The position numbers were made by a program, and so were the translations under genes. The notes beneath the pieces were generated by a model. The model worked only from the letters and a program-made list of their open reading frames with translations, made no database searches and had not been told where the DNA came from. Positions 33,240-41,671 of a DNA stretch of 64,000 nt are shown here, one piece after another. The stretch lies in the NCBI RefSeq assembly GCF_003688285.1, contig NZ_RCNT01000005.1:259106-323105 (forward strand), given 5' to 3'. The stretch's first letter is position 1; every line of letters begins with the position of its first letter. Source of the DNA: Rhodophyticola porphyridii. Its GTDB lineage: Bacteria; Pseudomonadota; Alphaproteobacteria; Rhodobacterales; Rhodobacteraceae.

Positions 33240-34058
33240 TCAGGTGGATGAGCCCCCGCAAGGGAGCAGATGATCCATCTTCATCGACGGTTGGTCGCAA
33301 CCGGCCTCTCCCACGATCTTTGCAGGCACGCCCGCCACCGTCTTGCAGGCTGGGACATCTTCAAGAACTACCGACCCTGCGGCCACGCGGGAGCAATCCC
33401 CGACCCGGATATTACCCAGAACCTTCGCACCCGCCCCGATCAGAACACCGTTCCCGATCTTCGGATGCCGGTCCTCTTCTTCCTTGCCGGTGCCGCCAAG
33501 GGTCACGGAATGCAGCATCGAAACGTTGTCGCCCACCACCGCCGTCTCCCCGATGACGATGGAATGAGCATGGTCGATCATGATCCCCTGCCCGATCCGC
33601 GCCGCGGGATGGATATCCACACCGAACACCTCGCTCACCCGCATCTGGATGAAATAGGCAAAGTCCTTGCGCCCCTGCCGCCACAGGAAATGGCCGACCC
33701 GATAGGCCTGGATCGCCTGGAAACCCTTGAAATACAGAAGCGGCTGCAAGAAGCGATGGCAGGCGGGATCGCGCTCGTAAACCGCGACGATATCGGCGCG
33801 GGCCGCGGCGCCAATCCCCGGATCGGCGGCAACGGCCTCATCGGCAATCTCGCGCAGGATCTGCTCCGACATGTCGCCAGATGTCAGCTTCTGCGCCACG
33901 CGATAGGCCAGCGCCCTCTCCAACGTGGCATGGTGCAGGACCGATCCATGCACCAGCCCGCCGAGCAAAGGCTCGGCCTGAACCGCCTGTTGCGCCTCGG
34001 CGGTGATCCGCGACCAGACCGGGTCGATCTCTGCGATATGGGTGCGGCGTTCAGCCAT
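33240..34058 (-). CDS. cysE: serine O-acetyltransferase
   Basis: A 272-residue enzyme that makes O-acetylserine for cysteine synthesis. The N-terminal helical domain (to about 140) is followed by left-handed beta-helix repeats; the catalytic stretch IDHAHSIVIGETAVVGDNVSM near 165 and HPKIGNGVLIGAGAKVLG near 197 are typical. The ATG at 34058 begins the family's N-terminus; the frame upstream is open but lacks conservation. It stands next to the tail end of the GTA cluster, the usual place for cysE in Rhodobacteraceae. Confidence 0.93.
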   Translation of the reverse strand: MAERRTHIAEIDPVWSRITAEAQQAVQAEPLLGGLVHGSVLHHATLERALAYRVAQKLTSGDMSEQILREIADEAVAADPGIGAAARADIVAVYERDPACHRFLQPLLYFKGFQAIQAYRVGHFLWRQGRKDFAYFIQMRVSEVFGVDIHPAARIGQGIMIDHAHSIVIGETAVVGDNVSMLHSVTLGGTGKEEEDRHPKIGNGVLIGAGAKVLGNIRVGDCSRVAAGSVVLEDVPACKTVAGVPAKIVGEAGCDQPSMKMDHLLPCGGSST

Positions 34059-34140
34059 GGCGGCCTCCTTCGGGGCAGTCTGCCGACCCTTTATACCAGA
34101 TCGGCAGGCCATCCCAAGACAGAAACCGTGATCGACGCCA

Positions 34141-34848
34141 TCAAACGGCGTTGGGCAGGGCGAGGCTCGCGTAATGGACTGCAAGCCGGATGGTCCCGCC
34201 CGTGAAATCCGCGCCTTCCGCAGAAATCAGCAATTCCGTGGGGGCCCAGTACACGGTCGGCGTGGTCGGCCCCGAAACCCAGGAGTTCTGGCTGACGCCC
34301 AAACCGGAACCATAACGCAGATCGTCGCCCGCAACGCCCAGCCGCCAGGTCGTGGCACCGCCAATCGCGGCGGTGACCAGTCCTGTCACACCGAAGACAA
34401 TCGAGCGGTCGGGAATGACCACGGGCGTGGTGACCGTCGGGCCCGCGGTCAGGGCCACGTCGATCTCATCCGAGCGCAGCGCCATCCCGGCTCCGTTCTG
34501 GGTCAGCGTTACCGCCCCGGCGCGCCAGTCCTCACCGTCATGCATGGCCAAAACGCCGTCATCGAGGATCACGGCGCGGAAACCTTTCCGCGGAGCGACG
34601 AAATCCCACCCGCCATTGAGGTAAATAGCGATTTGGCCGCCTTGCCCGGCCCATGCGTTGACCCCGTTGGAGGGCACGCCATAGCAATCGCCTTCTTCGG
34701 CCACAGCGGGCGGGTCGTTCACGCTCAGCGACTTCAGGCGCAGCTGCACCATCCCGTCAAGCCGGCTGAGGGCCTCGTTCACGGTCACATGTTTCTGCGC
34801 CTGCGACGGGCTGAGAAGAGGCAGGTTCAATTGCGGCGTATCAGTCAT
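34141..34848 (-). CDS. DUF2793 protein, distal GTA gene
   Basis: A 235-residue protein with the N-terminal DUF2793 pattern NLPLLSPSQAQKHVTVNEAL (residues 8-27) and WAGQGGQIAIYLNGGW near 65. DUF2793 proteins commonly follow orfg15 in roseobacter GTA clusters and are thought to be tail-fibre or spike components. The C-terminal 100 residues are rich in Gly and Thr and are not recognised. ATG 34848 overlaps the orfg15 stop by 8 bp. Confidence 0.75.
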   Translation of the reverse strand: MTDTPQLNLPLLSPSQAQKHVTVNEALSRLDGMVQLRLKSLSVNDPPAVAEEGDCYGVPSNGVNAWAGQGGQIAIYLNGGWDFVAPRKGFRAVILDDGVLAMHDGEDWRAGAVTLTQNGAGMALRSDEIDVALTAGPTVTTPVVIPDRSIVFGVTGLVTAAIGGATTWRLGVAGDDLRYGSGLGVSQNSWVSGPTTPTVYWAPTELLISAEGADFTGGTIRLAVHYASLALPNAV

Positions 34849-37738
34849 CAATCATGATCCTTGTGAAGGGGCCCGGGCCGAACCGCCCGGATATTTGAGC
34901 AACATCAATGCTGTAGGGCGCGACAGTACCATCGCTACCGCGCGCTGAATCGTCATAGATCCAGCCCGGCTGGCTGACCGTCACCTCGCGTTTCAGCCCG
35001 CCCGAATCGCGCACCTGCACCAGATAGGTCTCGGCATCCTCGCCAAGCGGAACCTCGGTTCCCTGCCAGGTATCGCCATCGATACGGGTCCGCCGTATCC
35101 ATGTCACCTCCAGCCCGCCGGTTCCGGCCCGCGCCCGCACATGCGCCGGAGCATAGGGTCTCAAGCCCACACCGTCGAAGGCCAGGACACGCTCCTGATA
35201 GCTTGCATCGTCCAGCGCGCGGCGCGCCGGACCGACACGGTAGTACCGCGCCAGACCACGTGCCGAGATGGCCAGATCAATCTGCTGCGGGCGTCCATCC
35301 AACAGCACGAACAGGCTGCCCGGTGGCCAGACATCGGGCATCACCCCGTCACTGCCCGCCTGCCCCCGCAGCCGCATGGAAATCTCCCACAATCCGGCGC
35401 CGACCAGTTCGGCATCTGCAAACTGGACCACTTCCCACGGGCCTTCGTCACCCGCGCCGATCGCGGCGACATTGGCCCCGTTCAAAACGGCCTCCCGATC
35501 AGCCGACGACAGGCCGCCGCCGGATGCGATCCGCACCCTGAACGGCGCGCCACGGTCCCAAAGACCTGCGCTCGCCGCGAAGAGCGGTGTTTCCAGCGTG
35601 CCAATGATGGCGCCCGCCTCGATCAGGCGGTTCAGCGCATACCCGTTCGCACTGCTTGAGGAATAGAGCGCAACCGAGCCCGGCCAGGGTTTGGCCGCGA
35701 CGGCAAGATGGGGCGCATGCTCCACTTCCTCGCCGCTCAGAAGCGGCAGATCCATGAACACGGGGCTGACCGGCAATGGCGGGACAAAGGCTTGCTGTGG
35801 CACCGCCTCGTCGGTCGCATCGGACGGCTCGGCAAGGCTGCGCTCCACCCGCACCGCCTCGATCCGCCGTGCGCCGATATCCTCTACCCGGTCGATCCGC
35901 CAGGTGGAGCCATCTTCCAGCGCGATCATCGCACCGGCACCCAGATCCCGGCGCGACGGCGGCAGATCGAAGCTCACCGTATCGCGCGCCACGCGCGCCT
36001 CCGCCAGCCAGCGCTCGGCGATGCCCCGCCCCTCGGCCAGCGTCAGCGCCAGAGGCAACTCGCTCTGGCTCACGCCGATATCGTCATCATCTGGGAATAT
36101 CGCTTCGGCCACGCGGGTTTCGAACGCGCCATCCGCCTCCGTATAGCCGAGCCGCACCCTGCCGACGGTCTCCGCCTCCGGCGCCCGTGTCAGGCGCAGG
36201 CCCGCCGCGCCATCCTCATCGACGGCCGTTGTCTCGGCCAGAATCCCGCCATCCGGCAGCAAGGGCAGATGCAGGAAAACCAGCTTTCCATCCCTCTCCA
36301 CCGCGCCGAACCCATAGGCCAGCATCAGGGGCTGCAACCGCGCCCGCGCCGTTTCGATATCGGAAGAGACATGCCCCCGCACGAATCCGAACAGACCCGA
36401 GACATCGTAGTCGGTCACCCCCGCCTTTTCGCAGATCTCCGCCACCACCATGGCAAGCGGCTGGCCGGAAACTCGGCCGGTGATCCAATGGCCCCGCCCG
36501 TAATTCTCCCCGTCGCTCCAGATATCACGCTTGTTCGGAAATGCGGGCCAAGGCCGCGCATCCCATGCCCAGACATGCGCCTTTGAGAGATCCACCATCG
36601 GCGCCCCATAGATCGGCGAGAGCGGATTATTGCTCGGGTCGCTCCAATAGGCGATCGTTGCGCGCAGATACTGCGCCTGGATCAGATCATCCCGCCGCCC
36701 GTCGGAGAAGTAGGGCAACGCCGTTTCCGAACTTTTGGGGTCGAGAAACTTGTTGGGCTGGTTGCTTCCCTTGTCGACCGCCCCGCAGCCGAACTCGGTG
36801 AACCAGATCGGCTTGGATTTCGGAACCCACGGGCTTGGCGTCGCCAACTGATACCCGCCCCTGCGATCGGCATGAGGCGAGGCCCACCACTCGCGGATCG
36901 CCTTGTAGCGATAGACCCATGGCGCATTGGTCAGGCCATCGGAAACCGCTTCGTAGATGCTTAGCTCGCCGGCATCGGTTTCCGGCCACGGCGCGACGGG
37001 TTCGCCTTTGGTCACATTGGCCGGGTCGATCGGCCCGGTCCAGCGTGTGTCGGCCGCGCCCGCCCAATAGCCTCCCAGCATGCCGGAGCCGTCCGAAATG
37101 CTGCTCATCCCGACAAGCCGCCCGTCGATCCACAGCTTCACATGTCCCGGCGCGACCGGGCGAAGTTCCCAGACCAGTTCATGGATCTGTCCGTCAAACG
37201 GCAGCAGATCTGTCGACAGATCCAGAACCACGGTTCCGGTGTCAGACGCGGTCTTCGCGCTGGAGCCATCCCCCGCCCGCAACCGGAAGGTCGCGCCTGC
37301 GTCACGCACACCCATCCACGCGCCGAACCCCGCAGCGCCGGCTTCCCAGAGGGTCGCCTCAACGGCCGTGTCCGGAAACCTTACCTGCCCGGAAAACACG
37401 ACCGTCTCCTGACGGTAAGCCACGGCAAAGCTGCCCGAAACGCCCGGCGCCATGGTTTCCAGAAACTGCGTCGACCAGATGACCTGCCCGCCCAGCCGCA
37501 TCCGCCCGAACAGCTGCGCAATCGGGCTGCCCTCGTTGGCGCCCGTCAGGCGAAACCGCTCGACCCGGCCCACCTCGACCGGGTCCGATCCGGAGCCCAG
37601 AAGCCGTTGGTCGATGACCCGGCCAAGGGTCACCCCCACGGCCCGCCCGACCACGGCACCGGTCAGGCCCAGAAACGTGCCCGTGCCCGCTGCTCCTCCG
37701 ATGGCCGCACCCACCGCTGACAGAACTATCGTTGCCAT
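34841..37738 (-). CDS. GTA tail-tip/host specificity protein (orfg15-like), apparently chimeric
   Basis: A 965-residue protein; intact orfg15 products are usually near 1300. Residues 1-95 match the standard N-terminus (VIDQRLLGSGS near 41, VGRVERFRLTG near 56). From about 265 onward the normal sequence returns: the end of the GTA TIM-barrel region (PWVYRYKAIREWW; SKPIWFTEFGCGAVDKGSN), then the phage-tail domain to the C-terminus. Residues 96-264 do not fit. They look LamG/concanavalin-like, with FDGQIHELVWELRP and VKLWIDGRLVG. Most of the barrel's N-terminal half is therefore missing. The frame is open throughout. GAAAGGA precedes ATG 37738. Confidence 0.8.
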   Translation of the reverse strand: MATIVLSAVGAAIGGAAGTGTFLGLTGAVVGRAVGVTLGRVIDQRLLGSGSDPVEVGRVERFRLTGANEGSPIAQLFGRMRLGGQVIWSTQFLETMAPGVSGSFAVAYRQETVVFSGQVRFPDTAVEATLWEAGAAGFGAWMGVRDAGATFRLRAGDGSSAKTASDTGTVVLDLSTDLLPFDGQIHELVWELRPVAPGHVKLWIDGRLVGMSSISDGSGMLGGYWAGAADTRWTGPIDPANVTKGEPVAPWPETDAGELSIYEAVSDGLTNAPWVYRYKAIREWWASPHADRRGGYQLATPSPWVPKSKPIWFTEFGCGAVDKGSNQPNKFLDPKSSETALPYFSDGRRDDLIQAQYLRATIAYWSDPSNNPLSPIYGAPMVDLSKAHVWAWDARPWPAFPNKRDIWSDGENYGRGHWITGRVSGQPLAMVVAEICEKAGVTDYDVSGLFGFVRGHVSSDIETARARLQPLMLAYGFGAVERDGKLVFLHLPLLPDGGILAETTAVDEDGAAGLRLTRAPEAETVGRVRLGYTEADGAFETRVAEAIFPDDDDIGVSQSELPLALTLAEGRGIAERWLAEARVARDTVSFDLPPSRRDLGAGAMIALEDGSTWRIDRVEDIGARRIEAVRVERSLAEPSDATDEAVPQQAFVPPLPVSPVFMDLPLLSGEEVEHAPHLAVAAKPWPGSVALYSSSSANGYALNRLIEAGAIIGTLETPLFAASAGLWDRGAPFRVRIASGGGLSSADREAVLNGANVAAIGAGDEGPWEVVQFADAELVGAGLWEISMRLRGQAGSDGVMPDVWPPGSLFVLLDGRPQQIDLAISARGLARYYRVGPARRALDDASYQERVLAFDGVGLRPYAPAHVRARAGTGGLEVTWIRRTRIDGDTWQGTEVPLGEDAETYLVQVRDSGGLKREVTVSQPGWIYDDSARGSDGTVAPYSIDVAQISGRFGPGPFTRIMIDD

Positions 37739-37742
37739 GTCT

Positions 37743-38174
37743 TTATGTCCTTTCGGGGAAGGCAAATCGCGCGACGATGCGCCGTGCCCAGGGCGCGCTC
37801 AGCGCGCTTTCCACCACGCCATGCCCGGAATAGGCGTGGATGAATGTTGCCGCAGGGCCGATATTCCCCTGAAGCCCCAGATGCTTGGTGACAGATCCGT
37901 GACGCATGCGAAACAAAAGCACATCGCCCGTTGCGATCTCGGTGAGGGGTTTGGGGCAGAGATGCCGAAGCGCCGCCGCCCAAAGCCGCTCAACCCCTTC
38001 GGGCTCCGACCAGTCCTGCGAATAGGGCCGTACCGCTTCGGGTTCCGCGCCATAGATCTCGCGCCAGACGCCGCGCAGCAATCCAAGGCAATCGCATCCC
38101 GCGCCCTTGCAGCTTGCCTGATGCAGATAAGGCGTTCCCAGCCAGCCACGGGCCACAATCACGACCCTGCTCAT
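37743..38174 (-). CDS. GTA NlpC/P60-type peptidase (orfg14)
   Basis: A 143-residue cysteine peptidase-like protein. CDCLGLLRGVWRE near 27 carries the catalytic Cys, with a His in the GSVTKHLG segment near 97 and another in AATFIHAYSGHGV near 112. In RcGTA this tail-tip peptidase is thought to help open the recipient cell wall. It lies 4 bp before orfg15 and overlaps the orfg13 remnant by 4 bp, so the original operon spacing is kept on this side of the deletion. Confidence 0.83.
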   Translation of the reverse strand: MSRVVIVARGWLGTPYLHQASCKGAGCDCLGLLRGVWREIYGAEPEAVRPYSQDWSEPEGVERLWAAALRHLCPKPLTEIATGDVLLFRMRHGSVTKHLGLQGNIGPAATFIHAYSGHGVVESALSAPWARRIVARFAFPERT

Positions 38175-38395
38175 CGGCGTGACCCACCGTCGCGCGCATT
38201 GGTTCTGGCGGGATAACTCATCAGCCAGTCGTCTCCTGGAATATCCGGAAAACCTCTGAAATTCAGCAGGTTGTTGAACTTCAGCCGGCAGGTCTCCATG
38301 CGCTTGTCACACCCTGCCTCCAGCCGGATCATGTCGCCGGGCGCAACCGGCGCGCGAAACGGCTCCCATAACTCGACACTGCGTACATGCGACAC
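38171..38395 (-). pseudogene. 3' remnant of GTA orfg13 (DUF2163)
   Basis: About 74 codons in frame. The sequence CDKRMETCRLKF followed by NFRGFPDIPGDDWL is the typical C-terminus of DUF2163 proteins, which are about 290-300 residues when whole. The N-terminal three quarters are gone: directly upstream in the same direction lies the portal gene's 5' end in another frame. The GTG at the left of the fragment is part of the junction, and no ribosome-binding site supports it as a real start. Confidence 0.8.
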
Positions 38396-38495
38396 GCCCG
38401 GCCCCGCCCCAGGCCATCACCCGGCCCGCCGCCGAGGCCTTGGCCTCCGGCACTTCGACCGTGCCGCGTTTCAAGAAATCAAACACCATCCGCAT
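38396..38495 (-). pseudogene. 5' remnant of GTA portal gene (orfg3)
   Basis: About 33 codons. VFDFLKRG, then VPEAKASAAGRVMAWGGAGR, is the characteristic N-terminus of GTA/HK97-type portal proteins of Rhodobacteraceae. AGGAG stands two bases before ATG 38495 and eight before ATG 38489, so 38489 is the likelier start. After GRVA the frame runs into orfg13 DNA out of frame and stops at 38307. About 360 portal codons are missing. Confidence 0.8.
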
Positions 38496-38587: not shown

Positions 38588-39997
38588 TTACAGCGTCCGC
38601 ACCGCGGGGTTCCGATAGGCCCGCGCCGGCCCCAGCATCCCGTCGGTCAGCGCCCATACCAGCGCATCCACCCGGTCCGGGCTCCCGCGACCCTCGAACC
38701 CGGTCAGCGCCATCTTGCACATCTCGTCTTCCAGTTCCGGCAAGGCGCCCAGATGCCGGACCCTGCCCTGCTCATACAACGCCGCCACAGGCTCCGCGCG
38801 GGCCACCTTCCCGCGAGAGGCCCGCACCGCCCGGTAATTCACCAACGGATCGGTCTGCCGCATGATCGTTTCGACTAGATCGCCGCCCTGATTGACCTCC
38901 GCCACCATCCGTCCGGCCCCGTGCCGGTGATAGGCCGCACTCGCGACTTCCGCCCAGCCCTGCGGCGTTGCCGCCCGGACCGAGCAATCCTCGATCACGA
39001 CCGCGTGCCATTTTTCGGGCGGCCCGTCGCGGACAACGCCCACAACCACGATCCCGCACGCATCGGAGCCGTCATGTCCCGTCACCGGCGGGTCCACCGC
39101 CACGATCACGCGCGCGCCGTCGGGCACCGCCTCGACCCGTGCGGCATCCAGATCCGCCCGCCGCCACAGCGCGCCATCCACATCCTCCAGCAGTTCCCCG
39201 TCCAGCTCCTGCCGGCCCAGTCGCGTATTCCCGTAGCGCTCCCTCACATCGTCCAGAAAGGACGGCGCCAGATAGGCCCGGTTCGCCTCCGTCGGCGCGC
39301 TTGTCATCACCGTGTTCTCCCGGGTCAGCAGATCCTTCAGGACCGCCACATTGCGCGGTGTAGTAGTGACGACCTGTTGCGGATGGCGGCCTAGCCGCAG
39401 CCCGAACTGCAACATGTCCCAGGTGTCCTGCGCCCGTTTCCACTTGGCCAACTCATCGACCCATGCCGCATCGAATTGCGGCCCCCGCAGCGCCTCCGGG
39501 TCATGAGCGGAGTAGAGCCGCGCCTCGGCGCCGTTCGGCCAGACCAGCATCCGCTCCCCGGCCACCCAGTGCGGACGCCGGTCGGGCGGAGAGCAGGCCA
39601 ATATCCCGCTCTCGCCCTTCACCATGACGGCCAGCGCCTGGTCGTAGGTCTCCCCCACCAGCGCCAGCCGCCGCGCCCGTCCCGGCGCCTCGGCCGTGCC
39701 GCCTTCGACCATCATCCGCACCCATTCGGCCCCGGCGCGGGTTTTCCCCGCGCCGCGACCGCCCAGGATCACCCAGGTCCGCCAGTCCCCCTCCGGCGGC
39801 AATTGATGCGGCAAGGCCCAGACATCGAAGATGTAGGGCAGCGCCGCCAGCGCCTGATCACTCAGGCTTTCCAGAAACGCGTCCACCTCCGCTTGCGGCC
39901 TCAAGGCAAGCCAGGCGGAGGCCGATCTCCTCGCGCGCTGCGTCAAGGTCAAGTCCTCCCCCCCCGGCAGCGGCCCCGTGTCTGTCTCCTGCGTCAC
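38588..39997 (-). CDS. GTA large terminase subunit (orfg2)
   Basis: A DNA-packaging motor of up to 469 residues. Walker A is GGRGAGKTRAG near 79, with the coupling Walker B region at FDAAWVDELAKW near 174. The nuclease-domain acidic residues are in VAVDPPVTGHDGSDACG near 300 and in the SPDRVDALVWAL segment near 445. The length is normal, so it appears whole. ATG 39997 would overlap the small terminase gene by 140 bp; a GTG at 39883 would reduce this to 26 bp, so the start is uncertain. With no capsid or portal in the cluster it has no local partner. Confidence 0.85.
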   Translation of the reverse strand: MTQETDTGPLPGGEDLTLTQRARRSASAWLALRPQAEVDAFLESLSDQALAALPYIFDVWALPHQLPPEGDWRTWVILGGRGAGKTRAGAEWVRMMVEGGTAEAPGRARRLALVGETYDQALAVMVKGESGILACSPPDRRPHWVAGERMLVWPNGAEARLYSAHDPEALRGPQFDAAWVDELAKWKRAQDTWDMLQFGLRLGRHPQQVVTTTPRNVAVLKDLLTRENTVMTSAPTEANRAYLAPSFLDDVRERYGNTRLGRQELDGELLEDVDGALWRRADLDAARVEAVPDGARVIVAVDPPVTGHDGSDACGIVVVGVVRDGPPEKWHAVVIEDCSVRAATPQGWAEVASAAYHRHGAGRMVAEVNQGGDLVETIMRQTDPLVNYRAVRASRGKVARAEPVAALYEQGRVRHLGALPELEDEMCKMALTGFEGRGSPDRVDALVWALTDGMLGPARAYRNPAVRTL

Positions 39998-40238
39998 GCG
40001 CTTTCTCCCGCATCTGCAAGGCGAACATATAGGCGTTGTTCATCGCCCTGAGGTCCTTGGTGACCTCCTGTTCGCCCACCGTCTTTTCTGCCCGCAGCGC
40101 GTCAATCGCATCGGACAGCACCTCCAGCGCCACATCGAACGCCTTCATTGCCTCGGCCACGATCCCTTCGGCCCGTGCCAGGTCGTTGCGGTCCGTTTCC
40201 GGACCGGGTGTTTCGTGAGTAATGGCTGTCAAGTTCAA
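39858..40238 (-). CDS. GTA small terminase-like protein (orfg1)
   Basis: A 126-residue protein, the first gene of the GTA cluster. The helical stretch AEGIVAEAMKAFDVALEV with KDLRAMNNAYMFALQMREKA fits orfg1, now regarded as the GTA small terminase. The end of the protein is Gly- and Arg-rich and overlaps the terL reading frame. ATG 40238 is the first reasonable start. Confidence 0.72.
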   Translation of the reverse strand: MNLTAITHETPGPETDRNDLARAEGIVAEAMKAFDVALEVLSDAIDALRAEKTVGEQEVTKDLRAMNNAYMFALQMREKARDAGDRHGAAAGGGGLDLDAAREEIGLRLACLEAASGGGRVSGKPE

Positions 40239-40504: not shown

Positions 40505-41671
40505 TCACTCGGTCGCGGATGCCTCGCGTTCCGCTTCGATCTGGCGCCAGCGGGCCACGTTCCGGTTATGCTCCTCAAGGGTTTCGGCGAAGGCATGGCC
40601 CCCCGTCCCATCGGCAACGAAGAACACGTAATCCGTTTCGTCCGGGTTCAGCGCCGCCTCGATTGCGGCCCGTCCAGGGTTTGCGATCGGGGTAATCGGC
40701 AGGCCGTCGATCACATAGGTGTTCCACGGATTGTCATCGCGCAACTCGCTCTGCCGGATGCCGCGGCCCAATACACCACGCCCGTTGGTGACCCCGTAAA
40801 TCACCGTCGGGTCGGTCTGCAACCGCATCCCCCGGTTCAGGCGATTCTCGAAAACGCTCGCCACCCGGCCGCGCTCTTCCGGCACCGAGGTTTCCTTCTC
40901 GATGATCGACGCCAGAATCAGCGCCTCCTCGATCGTGTCCAGCGGCACGTCATCGGCACGGGCCTCCCAGGCCGCTGTCAGGACCTCCTCCTGTGCCGCC
41001 TGCATCCGCGCCAGCAACTCCTGCCTGTCCGCGCCGCGCTCTACCTCATAGGTGTCCGGCGCCAGCATGCCCTCCTGCGGCAGTTCCGGCACCTCCCCGC
41101 TCAGAAACTCCGCCTGGTTGAGCCCCTCGACGATCTGCCAGCTGGTCAGCCCCTCGGGCACCGAAACCCTGTACACCACCTGTGCATCGCTGCCCGTCAG
41201 CTCCCGGTAAATCTCCGGCACTTCCTCTTCATAGGCAAAGGTCGCCAGTTCGATGATCTCGCCCGTGCCCGGCACACGCTCCCGCAGACGCATCTCGCCC
41301 GTGCCCTGGTTGCGCAACACGAATGTCGCCGTATAGCGAAAGGTCGAGGCCGCCCCGGATGTCACGATATCCAGAATCTCCGCCATGGAGGCACCCGCCG
41401 GGATCTCGTAATTCCCGAAGCGCAGTTCCCCGGCCTGTCCGGTGTAATCCGCACCAAGCCGGAAGACCATCGGACTGGAAATGGCCCCGTCCTCGGCAAG
41501 CCCCTCCGACACGCTGCGCAGGCTCGCGCCCCGCTCCACTTCGAAAAAGATCGCCTGCTGCAAGGGCCCCGACGTGGTGAATTCCCGCTGCCCCCAGCCG
41601 ATCGCCGCCGCAAAGGCAATGAACGCCACGATCAGAAAACTCAGCCCGTTGGCGGCAACGTGTTTCCACAT
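40505..41671 (-). CDS. mltG: endolytic transglycosylase MltG
   Basis: A 388-residue inner-membrane murein transglycosylase that cuts nascent glycan strands. One membrane helix lies at about 8-28, a LysM-like region follows, and the YceG catalytic Glu is in LASIIEKETSVPEERG near 257. The motif QTDPTVIYG near 290 is typical. It follows fabF by 4 bp on the same strand, the usual acpP-fabF-mltG order. Confidence 0.93.
   Translation of the reverse strand: MWKHVAANGLSFLIVAFIAFAAAIGWGQREFTTSGPLQQAIFFEVERGASLRSVSEGLAEDGAISSPMVFRLGADYTGQAGELRFGNYEIPAGASMAEILDIVTSGAASTFRYTATFVLRNQGTGEMRLRERVPGTGEIIELATFAYEEEVPEIYRELTGSDAQVVYRVSVPEGLTSWQIVEGLNQAEFLSGEVPELPQEGMLAPDTYEVERGADRQELLARMQAAQEEVLTAAWEARADDVPLDTIEEALILASIIEKETSVPEERGRVASVFENRLNRGMRLQTDPTVIYGVTNGRGVLGRGIRQSELRDDNPWNTYVIDGLPITPIANPGRAAIEAALNPDETDYVFFVADGTGGHAFAETLEEHNRNVARWRQIEAEREASATE

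Follow-up and report, generated by a model that had tools for sequence, protein, structure and literature searches.

Two deletions in the gene transfer agent cluster of Rhodophyticola porphyridii and a recurrent terminase-g15 chimera among its relatives

The cluster region and its two junctions

Open reading frames and profile searches place the minus-strand end pieces of an RcGTA-type head-tail gene transfer agent (GTA) cluster between mltG and cysE in the window (the whole 64,000-nucleotide stretch analyzed, C18:259106-323105). The genome (G000) is a 3.84-Mb draft of 22 contigs with a stated completeness of 100, in which the cluster region is placed once. The features are collected in Table 1, with gene numbers and functions as in R. 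capsulatus. We take the upstream flank to be an mltG/yceG-type gene, and the downstream flank, by synteny, to be cysE. The gene in the small terminase position, g1, was without a Pfam or NCBIfam match.

Table 1. Features of the cluster region, in window coordinates
Feature	Coordinates	Strand	Basis and remarks
mltG/yceG-type gene (presumed), upstream flank	40505..41671	-	388-aa ORF; G002 98.7% identical and syntenic
g1, small terminase position	39858..40238	-	126 aa; G002 96% identical; assigned by position
g2, large terminase, full length	38588..39997	-	469 aa; Terminase_6N and Terminase_6C; G002 98.5% identical
Portal (g3) fragment, 36 codons + 2 nt	38386..38495	-	ORFs and G002 alignment; start at 38495
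Junction J1, 2-bp overlap TG	38386..38387	-	G002 alignment
3' end of g13 (baseplate hub), 71 codons and stop	38171..38387	-	TIGR02218 positions 196-265 of 266
g14, NlpC/P60 cell-wall peptidase, intact	37743..38174	-	TIGR02219, NLPC_P60
g15, megatron	34841..37765	-	974 aa; NF048004, Phage-tail_3, Rcc01698_C; GTA_TIM only from profile position 159
Junction J2 inside g15, 9-bp repeat CTGGAAACC	37454..37462	-	G002 alignment
DUF2793 protein after g15, intact	34141..34851	-	PF10983
cysE (presumed), serine acetyltransferase, downstream flank	33240..34064	-	Protein identical to G002 over 273 aa

The window resembles RcGTA-like Rhodobacterales clusters (R. capsulatus g1-g15) in gene order and neighbors, with mltG/yceG before and cysE after, and in the family matches of g2, g13, g14 and g15. 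The conserved GTA location between mltG/yceG and cysE is kept, in agreement with the original prediction of a still-syntenic cluster, whereas the complete head-tail set g1-g15 at that site is not: an R. capsulatus-type cluster is complete, but here portal to g13 and part of g15 are deleted and the genome is without a capsid match. In the description given in PMC9552610, yceG precedes g1 and cysE1 comes after the cluster in R. capsulatus, and RcGTA is not excised and is without att sites.

The nearest relative found, Boseongicola sp. H5 (G002), is 94-96% identical and collinear, and its alignment to the window is broken off exactly at two junctions, J1 and J2. At J1, the G002 match is to portal up to 38386 and to g13 from 38387, the two sides share only the bases TG, and 7,587 bp of G002 (L032 5456-13042) are absent from the window. 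The join is out of frame, so that the portal frame closes after 62 aa (38307-38495, minus strand). The predicted out-of-frame joining of the portal start to the 3' end of orfg13 is thus seen against G002, with remnants slightly longer than the 33 and 70 codons first given. The g13 fragment is 98.6% identical to G002 g13 residues 224-294. Between 30001 and 45000 of the window, the first 223 codons of g13 are absent, as are the rest of portal, g3.5, g4, g5, g6, g7, g8, g9, g10, g10.1, g11 and g12, confirming the predicted removal of everything from portal through orfg12. Among the missing genes, the genome-wide search covered capsid and g13: capsid had no match in the whole genome at E 1e-20 (it was matched in 236/295 genomes of a family sample), and g13 had one weaker match, at 1.6e-44. 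In 400,000 random joins within the cluster, an overlap of at least 2 bp arose with P = 0.19, and J1 does not need short-repeat recombination. As a separate observation, the g13 tail (38174-38386) has a dS of 0.415 against G002, compared with 0.07-0.29 in the other genes compared.

J2, which the original prediction of a single-event loss overlooked, is an in-frame loss of 1,566 bp inside orfg15. It joins g15 residues 94::617, leaving g15 522 aa shorter than in G002; residues 95-616 of the G002 protein, including the first part of the GTA_TIM domain, are lost. The deletion ends share the 9-bp direct repeat CTGGAAACC, an overlap of at least 9 bp having P = 0.00012 in 400,000 random joins, and J2 fits short-repeat recombination.

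Selection on the leftover genes and fates of the cluster in the genus

We compared the leftover genes with those of G002, in which g1-g15 are free of stops. Portal and g13 fragments aside, the leftover genes are open in G000, and their dN/dS against G002 is low (0.039 for g2 and 0.074 for the C-terminal part of g15). Changes were assigned to branches with G004, or with G006 where G004 failed, and 78 unpolarised changes were dropped. The ratio of nonsynonymous to synonymous changes (N:S) in the leftovers was 26:94 on the G000 branch versus 23:74 on the G002 branch (Fisher p 0.75), and no relaxed selection on the leftovers was detected in this branch test against intact G002; five control genes gave 9:90 (G000) and 5:61 (G002). 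Because there is no excess amino-acid change compared with the intact sister, the loss is recent. The losses in G000 have not had time to leave a trace in these counts and may be very recent. The proposed dated loss holds only loosely: the loss postdates the divergence from the Boseongicola sp. H5 lineage, and no relaxation is detectable on the branch.

The unlinked GTA regulator gafA and the holin and endolysin genes are also present in G000. The holin gene (PF11351) is open, as is the gene beside it, which we take by position to be the endolysin. Likewise open is gafA, identified by its place between lipA and guaA, the synteny described in PMC6363796, and by conservation. For these three genes together, N:S was 15:46 (G000) versus 5:42 (G002; p 0.08), at most a tentative hint of earlier relaxation, to which we give no weight.

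Across the genus set of seven genomes (G000-G006), G000 has lost structural genes that its close relatives retain. The G002 cluster is complete, no gene is absent from G004, where g12 spans two frames, and in G003 (L039) g1-g14 are followed by the beginning of g15, where the locus ends. The two-frame match of g12 in G004 (L033:11782-12410) suggests a frameshift or a sequencing error in an otherwise complete cluster. In G001 and G006, which are 96.9% identical over 15.4 kb, a common larger deletion joins terminase to g15 in frame. G005 (2.6 Mb) carries mltG and cysE on different contigs, gave no match for holin, capsid, g13 or the end of g15, and has no gafA between lipA and guaA; it has lost the cluster altogether, and the genus shows several fates.

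The leftovers of the shared deletion gave N:S of 14:7 in G006, versus 5:72 in five control genes, and of 17:34 in G001, versus 6:60 in control genes (20 and 48 changes unpolarised). Between G001 and G006, dN/dS was 0.096 for the terminase part, 0.192 for the C-terminal part of g15 and 0.254 for DUF2793, with 0.010-0.035 in the control genes mltG, fabF, cysE, lipA and guaA; values below 1 argue against a simple neutral remnant. Three further observations concern these two genomes. The terminase part of G001 (L036) has stops at codons 10 and 99, of which codon 10 may precede the real start. Some 900 bp just after the junction (L035:6900-7800 in G006) differ by 0.7-1.0% from G001, compared with about 3% around them, and may be a recombination tract. 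G001 also has two GTA_holin_3TM genes (C12:527063 and C12:954252), where the other holin-bearing genomes of the genus have one.

Origin of the broken cluster

That genes have been lost is plain from the content of the region, both junctions, the lack of a capsid match in the genome and the open leftovers. We consider it highly probable that an RcGTA-type cluster close to that of Boseongicola sp. H5 was recently knocked out by two independent illegitimate-recombination deletions. One would have removed 7.6 kb from portal to g13 with a 2-bp overlap, fusing the leftovers out of frame at J1; the other would have eliminated 1.57 kb of g15 at J2 by way of the 9-bp direct repeats, keeping the frame but costing the protein the initial portion of its TIM-barrel domain. 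Judging from known GTA gene functions, particle assembly would be impossible without portal, protease, capsid, adaptors, tail tube and tape measure. With gafA and the lysis pair remaining, the strain would no longer produce particles but might still receive DNA from GTAs. The loss of particle production, the order of events and their selective cause are matters that we infer.

The original prediction had instead put the locus down to a single deletion, with portal and g13 each carrying a copy of the 10-bp repeat GTGTCGCATG. This sequence does sit at the junction and in the G002 portal, where it occurs as a single copy (L032 5446) in the 20-kb region. However, it is missing from g13 of G002, whose best 10-mers fit it at 7/10, the nearest beginning 26 bases from the breakpoint, and it is absent from all of the G004 region, portal and g13 included; lack of the 10 bp in either gene of a relative is the outcome that the original prediction itself named as its refutation, and G002 shows it. 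The g13-side match starts only at TG, so that the true overlap is 2 bp rather than 10, and there are two deletions and not one; this explanation has next to no chance of being correct. It is also quite improbable that the strain is intact and that the assembler skipped 7.6 kb and 1.57 kb through collapse or a chimeric contig. The genome is indeed a draft, but two separate junctions with just 2 and 9 shared bp give an assembler little cause to join, and capsid is unmatched in the whole of an assembly with so high a stated completeness.

A remnant kept for a new job, for example as a surface complex of peptidase, megatron and DUF2793, would account for the whole open leftover genes with low dN/dS against G002, for the in-frame J2, and for the older-looking shared loss of G001 and G006, whose leftovers still have dN/dS below 1 (with 17:34 on the G001 branch). 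Yet the G000 branch behaves as that of the intact sister, so that a recent loss suffices without any function; moreover, the G006 leftovers drift (14:7 versus 5:72) and the G001 terminase part has two stops. We therefore regard such a remnant as improbable, and favor recent loss of a GTA by two deletions.

Pseudogenized and lost alphaproteobacterial GTA clusters, with cheater readings, are described by Kogay et al. 2024 (PMC10883770). Those clusters are like the present one in being broken in a lineage with intact relatives, and are read there as possible recent cheaters or as loss through deletion bias; the case described here differs in that comparison with a 94-96% identical relative fixes both breakpoints at single-base precision. 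Overall, the window is a real and recent two-deletion GTA loss, a good but ordinary case, GTA loss being already known.

Cluster loss across the family and a recurrent terminase-g15 chimera

The family sample covers 295 genomes from 294 genera, 266 of which matched the C-terminal 651 aa of g15; the corresponding numbers for capsid and g13 were 236 and 234. By comparison of the lists by eye, 32/266 genomes have the g15 end but no capsid match at E 1e-20, some of them being fragmented assemblies or prophage matches; the matches in G133 and G290, with low identity and extra copies, look like prophages. Deletion junctions of their own were found in nine genomes (G009, G019, G217, G024, G067, G098, G137, G145 and G231) and in the records named Litoreibacter arenae, Tateyamaria sp. 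Alg231-49, Thalassovita mediterranea and Fertoeibacter niger. These named records were identified by way of terminase, and their retention of the 5' end is thus partly an effect of ascertainment. G098 and G137 are probably the same species as L112 and L086, with coordinates alike. Internal deletion is a common end for GTA clusters in the family, and among the junctions read, none other than the one described below was seen in two clearly different species.

This junction makes a single in-frame gene of terminase Glu182 (about 183 by alignment) joined to g15 Glu836 (about 827 by alignment). The window is without it, g2 being full length and the junctions being g3::g13 and g15 94::617. The same join was first found in G166, G262, G092, G265, G114, G065, G159, G162 and G006; a search of 394 genomes with the G006 chimera gave at least 13 full-length fused matches, and 24 chosen genomes added three chimeras (G359, G161, which is cut by a contig end, and G077, which is frameshifted). 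The chimera thus occurs in at least 17 genera, that of the window counted, at loci including L035:6254-8791 (G006), L036 (G001), L177, L180-L182, L184-L187, L226-L230, L288, L293 and L296. In 18/18 loci read, the join is at the same residue, ...RGPQFxxAWxDE being followed by xGCxAxDxG...; because terminase supplies the Asp that precedes the join and g15 the Gly that follows, the position of the crossover is known to within one or two codons. Both the Terminase_6N and the GTA_TIM Pfam domain are interrupted by the join, which leaves the ATPase half of terminase, with Walker A and B kept, on the C-terminal 650 residues of the megatron. Walker A (GGRGAGKT) was kept in 16/16 fused loci aligned.

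In trees, most fused genes adjoin the intact genes of their own relatives; g15 and flank trees agree for G065, G114/G159, G399 and G001/G006, and for the others the partners are not the same in both trees or have no counterpart in the flank tree. A tree of residues 40-330 with 16 fused and 62 other rows (G161 and G077 left out) rejects a common origin of the sequence surrounding the junction: one clade of fused genes had p-AU 1.15e-70, and the tree requires a minimum of 11 changes, implying at least 11 origins if the deletion cannot revert. We also considered, and rejected, several local causes. A DNA-homology hotspot is not supported, the longest exact run at the site being 2-8 bp (median 4) in 60 complete-cluster genomes and the window's own genome; equally good registers at the fusion site numbered about 100,000 in the median (range 214 to 2.2 million). 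Nor is there support for a conserved recombination site: across 60 loci, the two positions ranked at the 0.145 and 0.585 quantiles of synonymous conservation. A recently transferred junction tract would raise identity beside the junction, but fused-fused pairs, at 0.694, were no more alike there than intact-intact pairs, at 0.723. Polarity on cysE was set aside, cysE1 of R. capsulatus being described as lying on a separate transcript (PMC9552610).

With respect to constraint, fused pairs were slightly less conserved in g15 than intact pairs at equal mltG identity (5/5 bins). A rate test on the genomes with flank data (13 fused, 40 intact) showed a modest speed-up of fused g15, with a mean residual of 0.040 against an intact sd of 0.031 (p 0.005); the terminase part gave p 0.052, and acceleration was absent in several fused lineages, most clearly in G126. 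Constraint on the chimera is largely kept, which fits losses of differing age or partial function.

It is possible that the chimera is an artefact of the genome collection. The fused g15 part evolves faster, and broken fused copies exist in G001, G334 and G077, both of which speak against an artefact. On the other hand, the acceleration is small and not seen in every fused lineage, and 3/60 complete clusters also have a g15 stop, although those three were fetched for their short frame. Stops flagged in G166, G399 and G265 were absent from the codons mapped in these genomes, and either lie in the unaligned N-terminal stretch or are alignment effects. In addition, two contigs, G054:C54 (L317 position 1) and G180:C14 (L318 position 4597), start at the first base of the Glu836 codon, which we cannot explain; neither genome had a terminase match at E 1e-10, and both are fragmented and probably MAGs. 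Such starts would be expected if fused and intact forms were mixed in the assembly. Outside the collection, no plasmid or phage record gave a match spanning 80% of the chimera, and viral contigs had at least 120 matches to the intact pattern and none to the fusion; a collapsed cluster would rarely be classed as viral, which limits these viral-collection negatives. No report of the Glu182::Glu836 fusion was found in the open-licence PMC literature, as judged from titles and abstract openings. The recurrence of the exact join rests on one genome collection, and we cannot explain it.

We tentatively suggest, with more doubt than confidence, that GTA clusters in the family, Rhodobacteraceae as named relatives indicate, repeatedly collapse to one chimera, either as a selected, convergent second domestication or as an ancient producer/non-producer polymorphism with re-homogenised flanks. 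In the latter alternative, of equal interest to domestication, a single old deletion allele would be shared between species, with recombination continually evening out the sequence on either side of it. Redfield and Soucy 2018 (PMC6209664) argue that defective alleles are not spread by GTAs since their carriers make none. The GTA-minus cells of that model are non-producers with defective GTA alleles, as the strain of the window would be; the argument bears on the recurrent junction and not on the window.

Overall, a recent loss resolved to the base, beside an intact 94-96% identical relative, provides a usable natural knockout pair. The recurrent chimera in the relatives is the part most worth following: if it is real, how GTAs die becomes a testable question on selection or polymorphism.
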